Shown here: piece by piece, positions 20,665 to 61,281 of the stretch
Layout: every line of letters begins with the position of its first letter
Position numbering within the stretch: the first letter of the stretch is position 1
Source of the DNA: Mycolicibacterium neworleansense
GTDB lineage: Bacteria > Actinomycetota > Actinomycetes > Mycobacteriales > Mycobacteriaceae
Assembly: GCF_001245615.1 (NCBI RefSeq)
Contig: NZ_CWKH01000001.1
Location: 2,604,001-2,668,000 of the forward strand
Direction: 5' to 3'
Length of the DNA: 64,000 nt
Translations under genes and position numbers: made by a program
Notes under the pieces: generated by a model
Databases searched by the model: none
What the model was told of the DNA's origin: nothing
The model's input: only the letters and a program-made list of their open reading frames with translations

Positions 20665-21744
20665 TCAGACGTCGGTGGAGTACCGGATACCGCCGTCGGG
20701 GATGGCGACCCCGGGCCACACCCTGGCGCCGCGCAACAGTTCGCAGCGGGCACCGATGTCGGCCCCGTCGCCGATCACACCGTCGCGGATCAGCGCCCGC
20801 GGGCCGATGCGGGCTCCGAAGCCGATGATCGAACGTTCAATCACCGCACCGGCTTCCACGCGTACGCCGTCGAAGATCACCGCGCCGTCCAGGCGTGCGC
20901 CTGCGCCGATCTCGGCTCCGCGGCCCACCACGGTGCCGCCGATCAACAGGGCGCCCGGCGCCACCGCCGCACCCTCGTGAACCAGGGACTCACCGCGCTG
21001 GCCGTTGAGCGCCGGCGACGGTGCGATGCCACGGACCAGATCGGCCGATCCACGCACGAAATCGTCCGGTGTGCCCATGTCGCGCCAGTACGAGGCGTCG
21101 ACGTACCCGCACATCTTCAGTCCACGGGAGAGCACCTCGGGGAAGATCTCGCGCTCTACGGACAGGGCGCGACCGCGCGGGATCTGGTCGATGACGTTGC
21201 GGTTGAACACATAACAGCCGGCGTTGATCTGGTCGGTCGGCGGATCCTGGGTCTTCTCCAGGAACGCGGTCACGAAGCCGTCGGCATCGGTTGGCACACA
21301 GCCGAACGCACGAGGATCACTGACGCGCACCAGGTGCAGCGTGACGTCTGCCTGGTGGGCGTCATGTGACTCCAGCACCGCGCCCAGGTCTGCCGCCGAC
21401 AGCACGTCACCGTTGAACACCATGGCAGTGTCGTAGCGCAGCTTGTCCGCCACGTTGGCGATCGCGCCACCGGTGCCCAGTGCCTCGGTCTCGGTGACGT
21501 ATTCGATCTCGAGCCCGAGGTCGGAGCCGTTACCGAACGCCTCCTCGAAAACCTCGGCCTTGTACGAGGTGCCCATCACCACGTGCTTGATACCGGCCAC
21601 GGAGATGCGCGCCAGCAGGTGAGTGAGGAACGGGACGCCTGCCGTCGGCAGCATCGGCTTGGGTGCTGAGAGCGTCAACGGCCGGAGCCGGGTACCACGG
21701 CCGCCGACGAGTACGACAGCGTCCACTTCCGCGGGATTGATCAC
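20665..21744 (-). CDS. Sugar-1-phosphate nucleotidyltransferase (GDP-mannose pyrophosphorylase-like, Rv3264c homologue)
   Basis: 359 residues, the length of the M. tuberculosis protein called ManB/RmlA2/MpgA in different sources. The nucleotidyl-transfer domain opens with VVLVGGRGTRLRPLTLSAPKPM; the metal-binding NGD is near residue 109. From about residue 255 hexapeptide repeats (GTVVGRGAEIGAGARL and onward) form a left-handed beta-helix. It likely makes GDP-mannose from mannose 1-phosphate. GTG start at 21744, one base after the wbbL stop. Confidence 0.92.
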   Translation of the reverse strand: MINPAEVDAVVLVGGRGTRLRPLTLSAPKPMLPTAGVPFLTHLLARISVAGIKHVVMGTSYKAEVFEEAFGNGSDLGLEIEYVTETEALGTGGAIANVADKLRYDTAMVFNGDVLSAADLGAVLESHDAHQADVTLHLVRVSDPRAFGCVPTDADGFVTAFLEKTQDPPTDQINAGCYVFNRNVIDQIPRGRALSVEREIFPEVLSRGLKMCGYVDASYWRDMGTPDDFVRGSADLVRGIAPSPALNGQRGESLVHEGAAVAPGALLIGGTVVGRGAEIGAGARLDGAVIFDGVRVEAGAVIERSIIGFGARIGPRALIRDGVIGDGADIGARCELLRGARVWPGVAIPDGGIRYSTDV

Positions 21745-49946: not shown

Positions 49947-49989
49947 GCGAACAGTCTGACCTCGGAGTCTAAGAATCCACTCAGACAAA

Positions 49990-50043
49990 TTGTCCGGTGA
50001 CCTTGATCGCGGTAGGGTCCGTTACAGGTTGAGTTCACAGCCG
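49990..50043 (+). promoter_or_regulatory. Promoter and conserved leader of STAS gene 1
   Basis: TTGTCC (49990-49995), 17 bases, TAGGGT (50013-50018), then a 20-base leader block (50024-50043) identical to 60229-60248. Homologous promoter bases (TTGTYC, CCTTGAT in the spacer, TAGRGTCC) are shared with STAS gene 2. A perfect 12-base palindrome AATACATGTATT lies at 50112-50123 in the leader. Confidence 0.65.
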
Positions 50044-50142
50044 TAGCGAGCGTCATCGACATACGCGCGGAGAACTCGCATCTTGTCGACTGACGCCGCA
50101 CCAACAGTACGAATACATGTATTACGACTGATGGAGCCGTCC

Positions 50143-50565
50143 ATGACCGTCTTCTCGACGAACGCACTGATCGATCGGACCGACGAATCGCCTGCGACGT
50201 TTGCTACGTGCTGGCTGCCGCCGTCAACGGCGGTGATCAGCGCCCACGGCGAGATCGATGCCGTCAACGCTGCCGAATTCGCGGACTACGCGTTGCAGCA
50301 CACCGGCAAGGCCAAGCAGGTCGCGGTCGACCTCACCGATATCGAGTTCTTCGGTACCGCAGGGTTTTCCGCCCTCAGAGCGATGGACACCCACTGCTCG
50401 ACCACGTCGGTCGACTGGGTGTTGGTGCCCAGCAAGGCGGTGAGCCGGCTACTGCGTATCTGCGACCCGAATTCAGAGTTGCACACGTGCTACAGCGTGG
50501 CGGCGGCACTGTCCACGCTGAACGGCAAGACCCCGCTACTGCAGCTGGTCACGAAGTCGCGCTAG
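50143..50565 (+). CDS. STAS-domain anti-sigma-factor antagonist 1
   Basis: 140 residues. A STAS domain (about 25-125) binds an anti-sigma factor and frees its sigma factor; STAVISAHGEIDAVNAAEF and AVDLTDIEFFGTAGF are the family cores. The residue at the usual phosphorylation site is Thr72 (FFGTAG), so kinase control is possible. I chose ATG 50143 because it gives the same length as the paralogue at 60359 and has TGGAG upstream. It runs convergently into sigF, sharing 30 bases with its 3' end, and shares a leader block with the paralogue. Confidence 0.88.
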   Translation: MTVFSTNALIDRTDESPATFATCWLPPSTAVISAHGEIDAVNAAEFADYALQHTGKAKQVAVDLTDIEFFGTAGFSALRAMDTHCSTTSVDWVLVPSKAVSRLLRICDPNSELHTCYSVAAALSTLNGKTPLLQLVTKSR

Positions 50566-51288
50566 CGATTTCGCCAACAGCCGCGATACGTGCATCTGCG
50601 AGACACCGACACGCTCGGCGATCTGCGTCTGCGTCATGGATTCGAAGAACCGCAGCAACAGTACCGTTCGTTCCCGCTCGGGTAGCTGAGCGAGCAACGG
50701 CCGCAACGTTTCTCGATTGTCGATCTGATCCAGGCCGGTGTCCACGTCGCCGAGCGTGTCAACTATCGCCGGTGCGTCCTCGTCGCCCCCGCCGCCGCCG
50801 TCGATCGACAGGGTGTTGTACGAACTGCCCGCGACGAGCCCTTCGATCACCTCTTCGCGGTCCATGCCGAGCTCGTCGGCAAGCTCGGAGGCGGTCGGGG
50901 CGCGGCCCAGCCGCTGCGACAGCTCGGCAGTCGCCGCGCCGAGCCGCAGGTGCAGTTCCTTGAGCCGCCGCGGCACCTTCACCGACCAGCTGTTGTCCCG
51001 GAAGTGGCGCCGGACCTCCCCCATGATCGTCGGCACCGCGAACGAAACGAAGTCCGATCCGGCCTCCACGTCAAATCGGTTGACCGCGTTGACCAGGCCG
51101 ACCCGCGCCACCTGGGTCAAGTCTTCCCGAGGCTCGCCTCGGCCGTCGAACCGCCGCGCGATGTGGTCGGCGAGCGGCAGGCACCGCTCGACGATCCGCT
51201 CACGTTGGCGTTCGTAGGCCGACGAGTCCTCGGACAGTTCGCTGAGTTCGCGAAACATGTCGCGAACGTCCGCATATTCCGACGTCAC
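50536..51288 (-). CDS. sigF: RNA polymerase sigma factor SigF
   Basis: 250 residues. Regions 2-4 of a stress sigma factor: DLTQVARVGLVNAVNRFD and SFAVPTIMGEVRRHFRDN (region 2), LGMDREEVIEGL (region 3), ESMTQTQIAERVGVSQMHVSRLL (region 4). It is the mycobacterial relative of Bacillus sigma-B and directs stationary-phase and stress genes. The GTG start overlaps the rsbW stop by four bases. Its 3' end overlaps the STAS gene's 3' end on the other strand. Confidence 0.97.
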   Translation of the reverse strand: MTSEYADVRDMFRELSELSEDSSAYERQRERIVERCLPLADHIARRFDGRGEPREDLTQVARVGLVNAVNRFDVEAGSDFVSFAVPTIMGEVRRHFRDNSWSVKVPRRLKELHLRLGAATAELSQRLGRAPTASELADELGMDREEVIEGLVAGSSYNTLSIDGGGGGDEDAPAIVDTLGDVDTGLDQIDNRETLRPLLAQLPERERTVLLLRFFESMTQTQIAERVGVSQMHVSRLLAKSLARLRDQLQ

Positions 51289-51719
51289 CTCAGCAGGCTC
51301 GCTCGTCTCGTCGTCAGGGTGATGCCGAATACCTGGCCGGCGTCGGGCCCGTCACCGTCGGTGAAGGTGGTGACGGCGTCGGTCAGCGAGCTCAACACAT
51401 GCCAGCTGAAGCTGCCCGGTTCCACCACCGCGGCGCCCGTGCAGGTGGCGGAAGCGGTGATCACCACCGATTCGTCGCCCGGGTCAACGGTCAAATGCAG
51501 GCCCGAATCCGGGACGGCGGCCCGGATCAGAGCCGTGCAAGCCTCGTCCACGGCCAGCCGCAGATCAGCGACGACGTCGAAGTCAAGGTCTTCAAAGGCT
51601 GCCACCGCAGCTACAAGGGTGCGCACTACGGCCAGGTTCTCCAGCCTCGCAGCGACCCGAATCTCCACCGACCGCTCCGCGCGCTTCGGCGGCTTGGGTT
51701 GGCCCTGTTCGTCGGCCAT
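51285..51719 (-). CDS. rsbW: Anti-sigma-F factor RsbW/UsfX
   Basis: 144 residues. A GHKL ATPase that binds and inhibits SigF; the N-box DLRLAVDEACTALI (about 66-79) is present, but the classical G1 box is poorly conserved. Start MADEQGQPKPP at 51719 with GGGAGGTGAG upstream. First gene of rsbW-sigF. In M. tuberculosis usfX (Rv3287c) likewise precedes sigF. A 14-base palindrome ATCCCAGCTGGGAT lies at 51749-51762 upstream. Confidence 0.93.
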   Translation of the reverse strand: MADEQGQPKPPKRAERSVEIRVAARLENLAVVRTLVAAVAAFEDLDFDVVADLRLAVDEACTALIRAAVPDSGLHLTVDPGDESVVITASATCTGAAVVEPGSFSWHVLSSLTDAVTTFTDGDGPDAGQVFGITLTTRRASLLR

Positions 51720-51748
51720 CTCACCTCCCGGCATCTCGGACCGACAGT

Positions 51749-51762
51749 ATCCCAGCTGGGAT
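51749..51762. promoter_or_regulatory. Perfect palindrome before rsbW-sigF
   Basis: ATCCCAGCTGGGAT, 14 bases, 30 bases upstream of the rsbW start. On the minus strand GGGATACT overlaps one half and could be a -10 box, but no GTTT lies 15-17 bases further upstream, so I do not call it a SigF promoter. Confidence 0.35.
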
Positions 51763-51927
51763 CCTTGCCTCACGGGACCGCCCTGCCCCGGCGACTCGAT
51801 GTCGGTCTCGACTTCGACACTGCCGTTCCTTTCTGCGCCCTGATGCGGCCCCGCCTGGGACCTCCGGCCAGGGATGCCCATCGCGGCGCAACCCGAAACC
51901 TGTGACGAACGTGGGATTATCGACAGT

Positions 51928-60194: not shown

Positions 60195-60248
60195 TTGTTC
60201 GAGCCCTTGATGGGGCGTAGAGTCCAAGACAGGTTGAGTTCACAGCCG
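60195..60248 (+). promoter_or_regulatory. Promoter and conserved leader of STAS gene 2
   Basis: TTGTTC (60195-60200), 17 bases containing CCTTGAT, TAGAGT (60218-60223), then a 20-base block (60229-60248) identical to 50024-50043. CGTCATCG follows the block in both loci. Confidence 0.65.
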
Positions 60249-60282
60249 CCCCGGAACGTCATCGGGTGCAGGGTTGTGATAT

Positions 60283-60302
60283 CCCCTGTGTCCAGGGGTT
60301 TT
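60283..60302 (+). terminator. Terminator-like hairpin in the STAS 2 leader
   Basis: CCCCTG-TGTC-CAGGGG and TTTT, about 35 bases past the conserved leader block and 57 before the ATG. It could act as an attenuator; it is not seen before STAS gene 1. Confidence 0.4.
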
Positions 60303-60358
60303 GAGCCCACAGAGCCTAAAGAGTGACGTGACCACAGTAGTCCTACTGAGGAGTCACA

Positions 60359-60781
60359 ATGTCCACCACAAACGTCGCGAAACAAACCGCGCCCCATGAC
60401 CACGCGCGCGCGCAATTCTGCGCCCAGTGGCTCTCACCGGCCACCGCGGTCATCAGCGTCCATGGCGAGCTGGACGCATCCAATGCCGCTGAACTGACGG
60501 AATGCGGATTCCGGCACTGCAGGCCGAGCAGACAAATCGTCCTCGATCTGAGTGAGGTCGAGTTCTTCGGCGCCGGCTGCTTCGCCTGCCTACACACCCT
60601 CAACGTGCGGTGCGCCGGCGAGAACGTCGACTGGGTACTGATCCCGAGCGCCGCCGTCTCCCGGGTCCTGGGGATCTGCGATCCCGCCCGAGCTCTGCCG
60701 ACTTCCACCGGACTGCCTGCCGCGCTGTCGATGCTGCGCGATCAGCCACGTCAGCTAGAGCTGGTGAACGTGCATCGTTAG
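60359..60781 (+). CDS. STAS-domain anti-sigma-factor antagonist 2
   Basis: 140 residues, the same length as STAS 1, and alignable without gaps over the first 75 residues. The core ATAVISVHGELDASNAAEL and VLDLSEVEFFGAGCF matches. At the usual phosphorylation site it has Ala72 where STAS 1 has Thr72, so it probably cannot be switched off by phosphorylation. GAGGAG lies seven bases before the ATG. It runs convergently into the RsbW-like gene with a four-base overlap. Confidence 0.88.
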   Translation: MSTTNVAKQTAPHDHARAQFCAQWLSPATAVISVHGELDASNAAELTECGFRHCRPSRQIVLDLSEVEFFGAGCFACLHTLNVRCAGENVDWVLIPSAAVSRVLGICDPARALPTSTGLPAALSMLRDQPRQLELVNVHR

Positions 60782-61281
60782 GGGCCTGCCGCGGCCCATC
60801 GCCGCCGGATCGTCAGCGAAATGCCGAGTGCCGGACAGCTCGTGCCGTTGTGCTCGACGTCGGCGACGAAGGTTTCGACCTTCTCGGTCAACGCCTCCAG
60901 TACCCGACGGCTGAAACCGCTCAGGGCCGGTCGGTCGGGGTGGCTACGGGAACCGTCACAGGCCGTCGACACCCGAACGTTGAGTTCGCGTGCCCGAGGG
61001 TCTTCGACCAGCACCAGGGCGGCTCCGGCCGGGGCCATGTCGATCAGTGCGGTGCACGCTTCATCAACCGCCAACTCAAGGTTGGCTGCCGTATCGCCGT
61101 TCAGGTCTTCATAGTTGGCCAGGCACCGCGTCATGGCTCTGACCATGGCCAGTGCATCGGGCCGGGCCGGCACCCGGAGTTCCACAGCGCCCGCTCCGCG
61201 CGTGTAACCAGATCCCCAGTGGGGTATTCGCCGACCGTGCAGCACAGTAAGCGGAGGGCTCGATGCCCGGTCGGTTGACAT
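60778..61281 (-). CDS. RsbW-like GHKL ATPase, orphan anti-sigma factor
   Basis: 167 residues. The N-box NLELAVDEACTALI matches that of RsbW at 51.3 kb. The N-terminal 30 residues are extra and unlike RsbW. No sigma factor gene lies beside it. By analogy it binds a sigma factor or an STAS protein, and STAS 2 is its likely partner. ATG 61281 overlaps a possible start of the divergent topoisomerase gene. Confidence 0.85.
   Translation of the reverse strand: MSTDRASSPPLTVLHGRRIPHWGSGYTRGAGAVELRVPARPDALAMVRAMTRCLANYEDLNGDTAANLELAVDEACTALIDMAPAGAALVLVEDPRARELNVRVSTACDGSRSHPDRPALSGFSRRVLEALTEKVETFVADVEHNGTSCPALGISLTIRRRWAAAGP
61202..61227 (+). promoter_or_regulatory. Possible SigF-type promoter of topoisomerase IB
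   Basis: GTGT (61202-61205), 16 bases, GGGTAT (61222-61227): one mismatch in the -35. It lies within the RsbW-like gene, on the plus strand toward the topoisomerase gene. Confidence 0.35.

Follow-up and report, generated by a model that had tools for sequence, protein, structure and literature searches.

Two STAS genes of Mycolicibacterium neworleansense, referred to here as loci A and B, appear to begin their mRNAs with the same 20 bases, which raises the question of what kind of element this block is, which part of it is conserved, and what it does on these genes. The DNA analysed, called the window in the following, is a stretch of 64,000 nucleotides (RefSeq assembly GCF_001245615.1, contig NZ_CWKH01000001.1, positions 2,604,001 to 2,668,000), and coordinates count from its first letter. 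A direct read and a search confirmed the main observation of the initial annotation, that the block, ACAGGTTGAGTTCACAGCCG, stands identical at 50024-50043 and 60229-60248 on the forward strand, each time behind a promoter-like box and before a STAS gene (Table 1). Allowing up to three mismatches, these are the only two matches in the window (none in 100 dinucleotide shuffles), and also the only two in the whole genome of 6,287,317 bases in 9 contigs, where the reversed pattern used as control gave none. The hairpin formed by the block, P1, starts 8 nt past the −10-like box at both loci and lies 116 nt (A) and 127 nt (B) before the ATG. The box TTGTYC-N17-TAGRGT, read earlier as a shared promoter, is present at both loci but is only a generic box. 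The proposed common spacer feature CCTTGAT looks like a coincidence: CCTTGA is found upstream in 10 of 11 A-type leaders versus 1 of 8 B-type leaders, counts that include those of the window.

Table 1. Features of loci A and B and of the adjoining frames in the window
Feature	Position	Strand	Basis
Locus A, promoter-like box TTGTCC-N17-TAGGGT	49990..50018	+	read directly
Locus A, hairpin P1: GGUUG (50027-50031), loop AGUUCA, CAGCC (50038-50042)	50027..50042	+	fold and relatives
Locus A, helix P2	5' strand 50046-50061, 3' strand 50084-50099	+	15 predicted pairs, most with probability near 1
Locus A, hairpin before ATG; outer CCA-UGG pairs reach the Shine-Dalgarno (GGAG 50133-50136)	50101..50134	+	predicted
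STAS gene A, 140 aa	50143..50565	+	Pfam STAS 43.4 bits, cut-off 22.6
sigF, convergent with STAS A	50536..51288	-	NCBIfam PRK07122.1 SigF 476.3 bits, cut-off 372
RsbW-like anti-sigma kinase frame adjoining sigF	51285..51881	-	Pfam HATPase_c_2 32.7 bits, cut-off 27.4
Locus B, promoter-like box TTGTTC-N17-TAGAGT	60195..60223	+	read directly
Locus B, hairpin P1, same 16 bases as A	60232..60247	+	read directly
Locus B, helix P2: CGUCA 60257-60261 with UGACG 60324-60328	60257..60328	+	alignment A2 and pair counts
Locus B, Shine-Dalgarno hairpin: GUGAC 60328-60332/GUCAC 60353-60357, CAGUAG 60335-60340/CUACUG 60343-60348	60328..60357	+	predicted fold
STAS gene B, 140 aa	60359..60781	+	Pfam STAS 29.7 bits (cut-off 22.6), STAS_2 31.8 bits (cut-off 29.2)
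HATPase_c_2-like (RsbW3-like) frame, convergent with STAS B	60778..61281	-	Pfam 24.7 bits, below cut-off 27.4 (weak)

The proteins encoded by A and B are 45% identical to each other, and both stay below the NCBIfam ant_ant_sig cut-off (38.5 and 32.8 against 53.45). According to the excerpts of PMC7693655 at hand, the RsbW homologue RsbW3 sits in the vicinity of rsfA, and locus B, with its RsbW3-like neighbour, may therefore be the rsfA place of mycobacteria. The 3' end of STAS A overlaps that of sigF by 30 bases (50536-50565), and STAS B overlaps its convergent frame by 4 (60778-60781). Since both STAS genes thus meet sigma or anti-sigma-like frames tail to tail, the transcripts may be mutually antisense. 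A record under the name Streptomyces sp. DSM 41633 (P0046) contains a STAS fragment with 83% identity to gene B and is perhaps mislabelled or contaminated.

The expectation that the block is not frequent elsewhere in the genome holds for the 20 bases as such, but a third copy appeared when the loop was left free. This hairpin, GGTTGAGGACACAGCC at G000:C2:1148540-1148555, has the loop AGGACA and lies 73 nt before the ATG of another STAS gene. The hairpin is thus found on the genes of three of the eleven STAS-domain proteins of this genome, and the pattern GGTTGANNNNACAGCC occurs in the genome at those three STAS places only. A covariance model, R1, scored locus A with 70.1 bits and locus B with 50.1 bits, the next best place in the genome reaching 21.6. 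Within the window GGTTG-N(5-8)-CAGCC matches once more at 21289-21303 (GGTTG-GCACA-CAGCC), inside a coding frame of the opposite strand; with 0.74 such matches expected per shuffled window this was taken as chance. Several genomes (the L003 and L027 clusters and others such as G020, G021, G049, G124, G128 and G141) have two hairpin sites about 4-10 kb apart, as in the window.

Searches in relatives tied the block to the same kind of gene. With up to three mismatches the 20-mer was found in 124 of 148 genomes of the genus, the reversed control in 21 of 148, and all of the first 30 loci from relatives, except L013, run into a STAS frame. An exact 18-mer is present in at least 118 stretches of named genomes, and among the 80 listed there are 79 mycobacterial names and one actinomycete metagenome bin. 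Both sets together comprise 152 sites, 139 of which have a STAS frame within 900 nt; two of these 139 leaders were dropped from later comparisons as no start codon had been assigned. The 13 sites lacking a STAS match are seven typical leaders too near the end of the locus, one typical leader without STAS (L138) and five without leader features (L013, L114, L119, L139, L144). Records with A-type leaders include M. houstonense, M. porcinum, M. peregrinum, M. septicum and M. fortunisiensis. One locus, L022 (G002:C1, near 871957-871976, minus strand), has a leader of 236 nt in which a pre-Shine-Dalgarno stretch resembling GAGCCACAGTATTT is repeated in tandem several times.

Family-wide, the promoter-anchored pattern TANNNT-N8-GGTTGANNNNACAGCC was found in 45 of 301 genomes and 6 of 31 genera, with none in the control. 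A STAS frame follows within 900 nt at all 39 of the sites examined (55 places listed), and at L260, which is among the 39, and at L266 the nearest start is out of frame with the STAS sequence. Covariance model R1 gave matches at E up to 0.1 in 22 of 121 family genomes; for 16 R1 matches in other genera a profile search found a STAS frame in three only (L204, L208 and L209), and L205 has a broken frame. Altogether the stem is seen in 11 genera besides that of the window (g6, g11, g13, g16, g21, g22, g23, g24, g25, g27 and g28), the g22 case lacking a −10 box at 6-11 nt. Among 396 genomes of the phylum GGTTGARCANACAGCC had two matches, neither of them before a STAS or SigF-type gene. A phage origin was rejected, an exact 17-mer having no match in viral contigs, as was a plasmid origin, no plasmid matching 49960-50150.

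A search that starts from a 20-mer cannot show what may vary in it, and the analysis was therefore restarted from STAS protein similarity. This gave 60 STAS loci, 30 from genomes of the genus that lack the 20-mer (21 of the 24 such genomes, three incomplete ones being left out) and 30 from other genera of the family. In the genus part 22 of 30 loci have a hairpin behind the −10 box, against 4 of 1500 shuffled upstream regions. The stem is GGTTG/CAGCC in 20 of them, GGCTG/CAGCC in one and GGCTG/CAGTC in one, while the loops take 20 different forms of 6 or 7 nt. In the full set 32 of 60 loci have a hairpin that departs from the stem at no more than two of its ten bases, and at least 27 of 60 have the exact stem, a lower bound as the scan covered only the first 600 bases of loci below 3000 bases. 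The script found no hairpin at the other 28 of the 60 loci; in L297 and L325, cut loci that the scan missed, the exact stem does follow a −10 box, and in L322 and L339 it comes without a box at 6-11 nt. The corresponding shuffles (1200) yielded no exact stem, 2 stems with one departure and 62 with two, and the two-departure cases L298 and L327 are accordingly at chance level and unsafe.

The 32 hairpin loci have 26 loop forms of 6-7 nt, and the hairpin stands 6-11 nt past the −10 box. Their third stem pair is U-G in 29 and C-G in 2, one of the two C-G loci (L298) being at chance level, and L312 and L313 break pair 5. With a stem this nearly constant there is almost no covariation for P1 itself, the whole yield from the 32 loci being those two changes from U-G to C-G and the two loci with a broken pair. 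Similarly, among 164 leaders one breaks pair 2 (GATTG) and one breaks pair 1 (CAGCG); the distance from the TANNNT box to the hairpin is 7 nt in 38, 8 nt in 110 and 9 nt in 11, other distances making up 6 in all. The exact 16-mer common to A and B is present in 125 of the 164, a set that is biased by the way in which it was found. Because the stem is kept and the loop is free in loci found through their proteins, the conserved unit is the 5-bp stem and not the 20-mer. The identity of 20 bases in A and B, which had been taken for the unit, is real, and their common loop AGUUCA is just the commonest one among mycobacterial sites.

The leaders behind P1 support the initial statement that the rest of them differs, as they split into many clusters; the comparison with relatives added that the stem and a second helix, P2, are kept while the loop and the remainder have diverged. 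P2 is a long-range helix in which the stretch just past P1 pairs with a stretch some 25-60 nt before the start codon. It was tested by permutation: the best helix that a leader forms with itself was set against the best one formed across leaders from different clusters. For 159 genus leaders in 41 clusters this gave p values of 2e-4 to 4e-4 over nine window choices. For 178 family-wide leaders in 52 clusters the self score was 16.82 versus a cross score of 14.44, and none of 10000 permutations was as high (p at the floor of 1e-4), whereas the controls gave 0.67 and 0.85. The letters of P2 differ in other genera, examples being GGGAAGCG/CGCUUCCC, GGAGGCG/CGCUUCC and GGAAAGCG/UGCUUUCU. Alignment A2, chosen for visible P2 motifs, shows modest covariation, mainly A-U/G-C at the innermost pair. 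P2 is thus a helix kept by compensating changes, which is the mark of a structured cis-regulatory RNA. The stretch CGTCATCG that follows the block, and which contains the 5' strand of P2, is present in 30 of 164 leaders, and CGTCA in 88 of 164. A second conserved module, GGCUUURAG...AGGGCC, was noted at 60296-60317 (here GGUUUUGAGCCCACAGAGCC) and in many leaders of the same clusters; it is predicted to form a hairpin within the P2 domain of one type of leader.

Folding of the two leaders gave a mixed picture. Both whole leaders fold better than shuffles (z −3.6 for A and −3.0 for B). The predicted fold of leader A contains both P1 and P2, and its P1, folded as 22 nt, reaches −5.6 kcal/mol (z −2.35). 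In leader B the first 40 nt by themselves are predicted to form P1, but in the full-length prediction the P1 bases pair with nt 44-61 instead, and P2 does not appear in the minimum-energy fold predicted for B on its own. In the predicted folds of A and B, part of the Shine-Dalgarno stretch is paired. For A the inner pairs of the hairpin before the ATG have probabilities of about 0.8-0.9 and the CCA-UGG pairs 0.37; for B the pairs of the Shine-Dalgarno hairpin have about 0.5-0.8. Covariation of a Shine-Dalgarno helix was not detected in either set (p 0.24 and 0.13 for the 159 genus leaders, 0.58 for the 178), and with p of 0.13-0.58 it was dropped as a covarying element.

Other pairings and a translated leader fared no better. 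A kissing loop between the P1 loop (GUUC) and a GAAC in the middle of the leader reached a weak p of 0.011, the loop variants do not match it, L151-L159 keeping other middles, and as the P1 loop is free such a contact was ruled out as a general feature. Pairing of P1 with a downstream anti-P1 stretch was not above shuffles (p 0.17, 41 clusters). Still, GAACTC occurs in 30% of 159 leaders and in 1.2% of shuffles, and a pairing of this kind is part of the predicted fold of locus B. An upstream ORF through P1 was also rejected; from the TTG the frame has 2 to 51 codons, and in 28 of 159 leaders there is no stop before the gene.

Comparison between genomes shows P1 as a conserved and rightly placed sequence capable of forming a hairpin, P2 as a covarying helix, and the association of the element with STAS genes. 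From these comparisons we consider it rather probable that the block is the window's copy of a family-wide RNA element in the 5' leaders of mRNAs for STAS antagonists of SigF partner switching, with a stem that is recognised in trans. The mRNA would most likely start one to three bases before P1, which places the hairpin at about +2/+3. P1 itself would consist of GGUUG and CAGCC, pair 3 being a U-G wobble, around a free loop of 6-7 nt. A candidate factor, be it a protein that binds RNA or RNA polymerase itself engaging the nascent transcript, may recognise the stem and thereby set the amount of STAS protein, through translation or mRNA stability. P2 would enclose a variable domain and end shortly before the Shine-Dalgarno stretch; it may compete with the hairpin that blocks this stretch, the balance being set by P1 and its factor, and the switch might in turn affect SigF activity.

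Some observations on RsfA are in line with this proposal. In the excerpts of PMC7693655 at hand, Western blots failed to show RsfA of M. smegmatis within the range used, even after its induction from a controllable promoter; deletion of rsfA had a mild effect, and induced RsfA acted more strongly than RsfB. A scarce RsfA fits a need for a low antagonist level, the observation concerning the M. smegmatis protein only. Rfam release 15 gave no match in the window at gathering score, and a permissive search of 49950-50200 returned one chance-level match on the opposite strand (E 1.4, below gathering score). The open-access literature searched contains no report of this element among leaders or riboswitches of anti-sigma antagonists, STAS or SigF, nor of its sequence.

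The earlier reading of the block as an RNA or 5'-end element and not a promoter box gains from the placement 6-11 nt past the −10 box, the covarying leader helix, the rarity of the hairpin and an asymmetry that permits pairing in RNA. The main rival is a DNA operator: P1 would be an imperfect inverted repeat at +2 to +18, its half-sites GGTTG and GGCTG set 6 bp apart, to which a dimeric repressor of these promoters binds. Operators typically combine invariant half-sites with a free spacer, and the site overlaps the expected transcription start. The half-sites are not interchangeable, however: the left one has T (29-30 loci) and the right one C, and the flipped site GGCTG-loop-CAACC, which would not pair in RNA, is found in none of the 60 protein-found loci, so that the asymmetry consistently preserves pairing in the transcript (U-G, never C-A). 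Furthermore, the spacer varies between 6 and 7 nt, the site always lies 6-11 nt behind the −10 box, there are no copies at other kinds of genes in this genome, and the leaders go on into a covarying RNA helix. We regard an operator as unlikely, though still to be reckoned with.

Less probable still is an action of P1 on initial transcription, in which the nascent hairpin or the early sequence would alter promoter escape or pausing through RNA polymerase and no separate protein would be needed. This would suit the 5'-end position in all classes of leaders, including the one of 73 nt and the one about 50 nt before a sigma-factor gene (see below), but there is no known counterpart with this stem, the spacing from the −10 box varies from 6 to 11 nt, and P2 is left unexplained. 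A plain 5'-terminal stabiliser against decay that depends on the 5' end would agree with a hairpin so near the expected 5' end (one to three bases); such a role needs no fixed stem sequence, yet here it is the stem that is fixed and the loop that is free, and we think this quite improbable. Leftover ancestry or gene conversion between neighbouring STAS paralogues is barely credible. Most hairpin-bearing STAS proteins do fall in one part of the tree, but the leaders have otherwise split into many clusters around a stem that stayed the same, and this stem persists through 12 genera with protein identity down to 20-38%; the fixed stem with its free loop has largely refuted this explanation already.

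Beyond the family, the class sample of 345 genomes (314 outside the family) contained TANNNT-N8-GGTTGANNNNACAGCC in a single outside genome, G445, about three matches being expected by chance in this sample (an estimate at equal base use). There the hairpin (G445:C12:547763-547778; L282 1515-1530) follows a TAGTAT box and precedes, by about 50 nt, a sigma-factor frame assigned to the SigF/SigB type by inspection of its sequence. Among 22 genomes of the same family as G445, GGTTGARNANACAGCC is present in G445 only, and this single case rests on its gene context. It suggests a wider and rather doubtful idea: P1 might be a 5'-end tag that makes SigF/SigB partner-switching mRNAs an RNA-level regulon, read through its U-G-containing stem by a dedicated trans factor or by RNA polymerase and acquired separately by STAS genes and, in another family of the class, by a sigma-factor gene, which would make it a post-transcriptional layer of the general stress response.

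For the family-wide leader element that we favour, several known systems offer comparison. A fixed stem with a free loop at the 5' end of an mRNA is an unusual, inverse pattern, and the hairpin gives annotators a signature for these STAS genes. Riboswitch-type translational leaders likewise have a structured 5' leader of about 100-140 nt with alternative pairings near the Shine-Dalgarno, but here there is no conserved core resembling a ligand pocket, the near-invariant part is limited to the 5'-terminal stem, and there is no Rfam match. Compared with switches that sequester the Shine-Dalgarno, sequestration here comes without support from covariation. Leaders of the cspA cold-shock type carry a conserved box at their 5' end. 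They are alike in combining a short conserved 5'-end element on paralogous mRNAs with a structured leader, and unlike in sequence, bacteria and genes, as well as in that here the stem is fixed and the loop free. The put RNA of phage HK022 forms nascent hairpins that are read by RNA polymerase; it shares with P1 a sequence-specific hairpin near the 5' end, a candidate polymerase-bound signal, but put is a phage antiterminator. Operators with inverted repeats overlapping the start site have two fixed half-sites and a free spacer, as seen here, whereas in P1 the asymmetry keeps the RNA paired, the place behind the −10 box is fixed, and within its own genome the hairpin stands at STAS genes only.

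The closest system in terms of genes is the mycobacterial SigF partner switching by RsbW1, RsfA, RsfB and RsbW3, which the excerpts of PMC7693655 and PMC10950880 at hand describe as controlled at the protein level, by phosphorylation, redox cysteines and partner binding. The genes are the same, STAS antagonists beside sigF and an RsbW3-like frame, and leader RNA goes unmentioned in those excerpts. If our reading is true, an RNA layer kept through 12 genera would fix the amount of antagonist ahead of any partner switching, which would point to a previously undescribed RNA-level control of a bacterial stress response.
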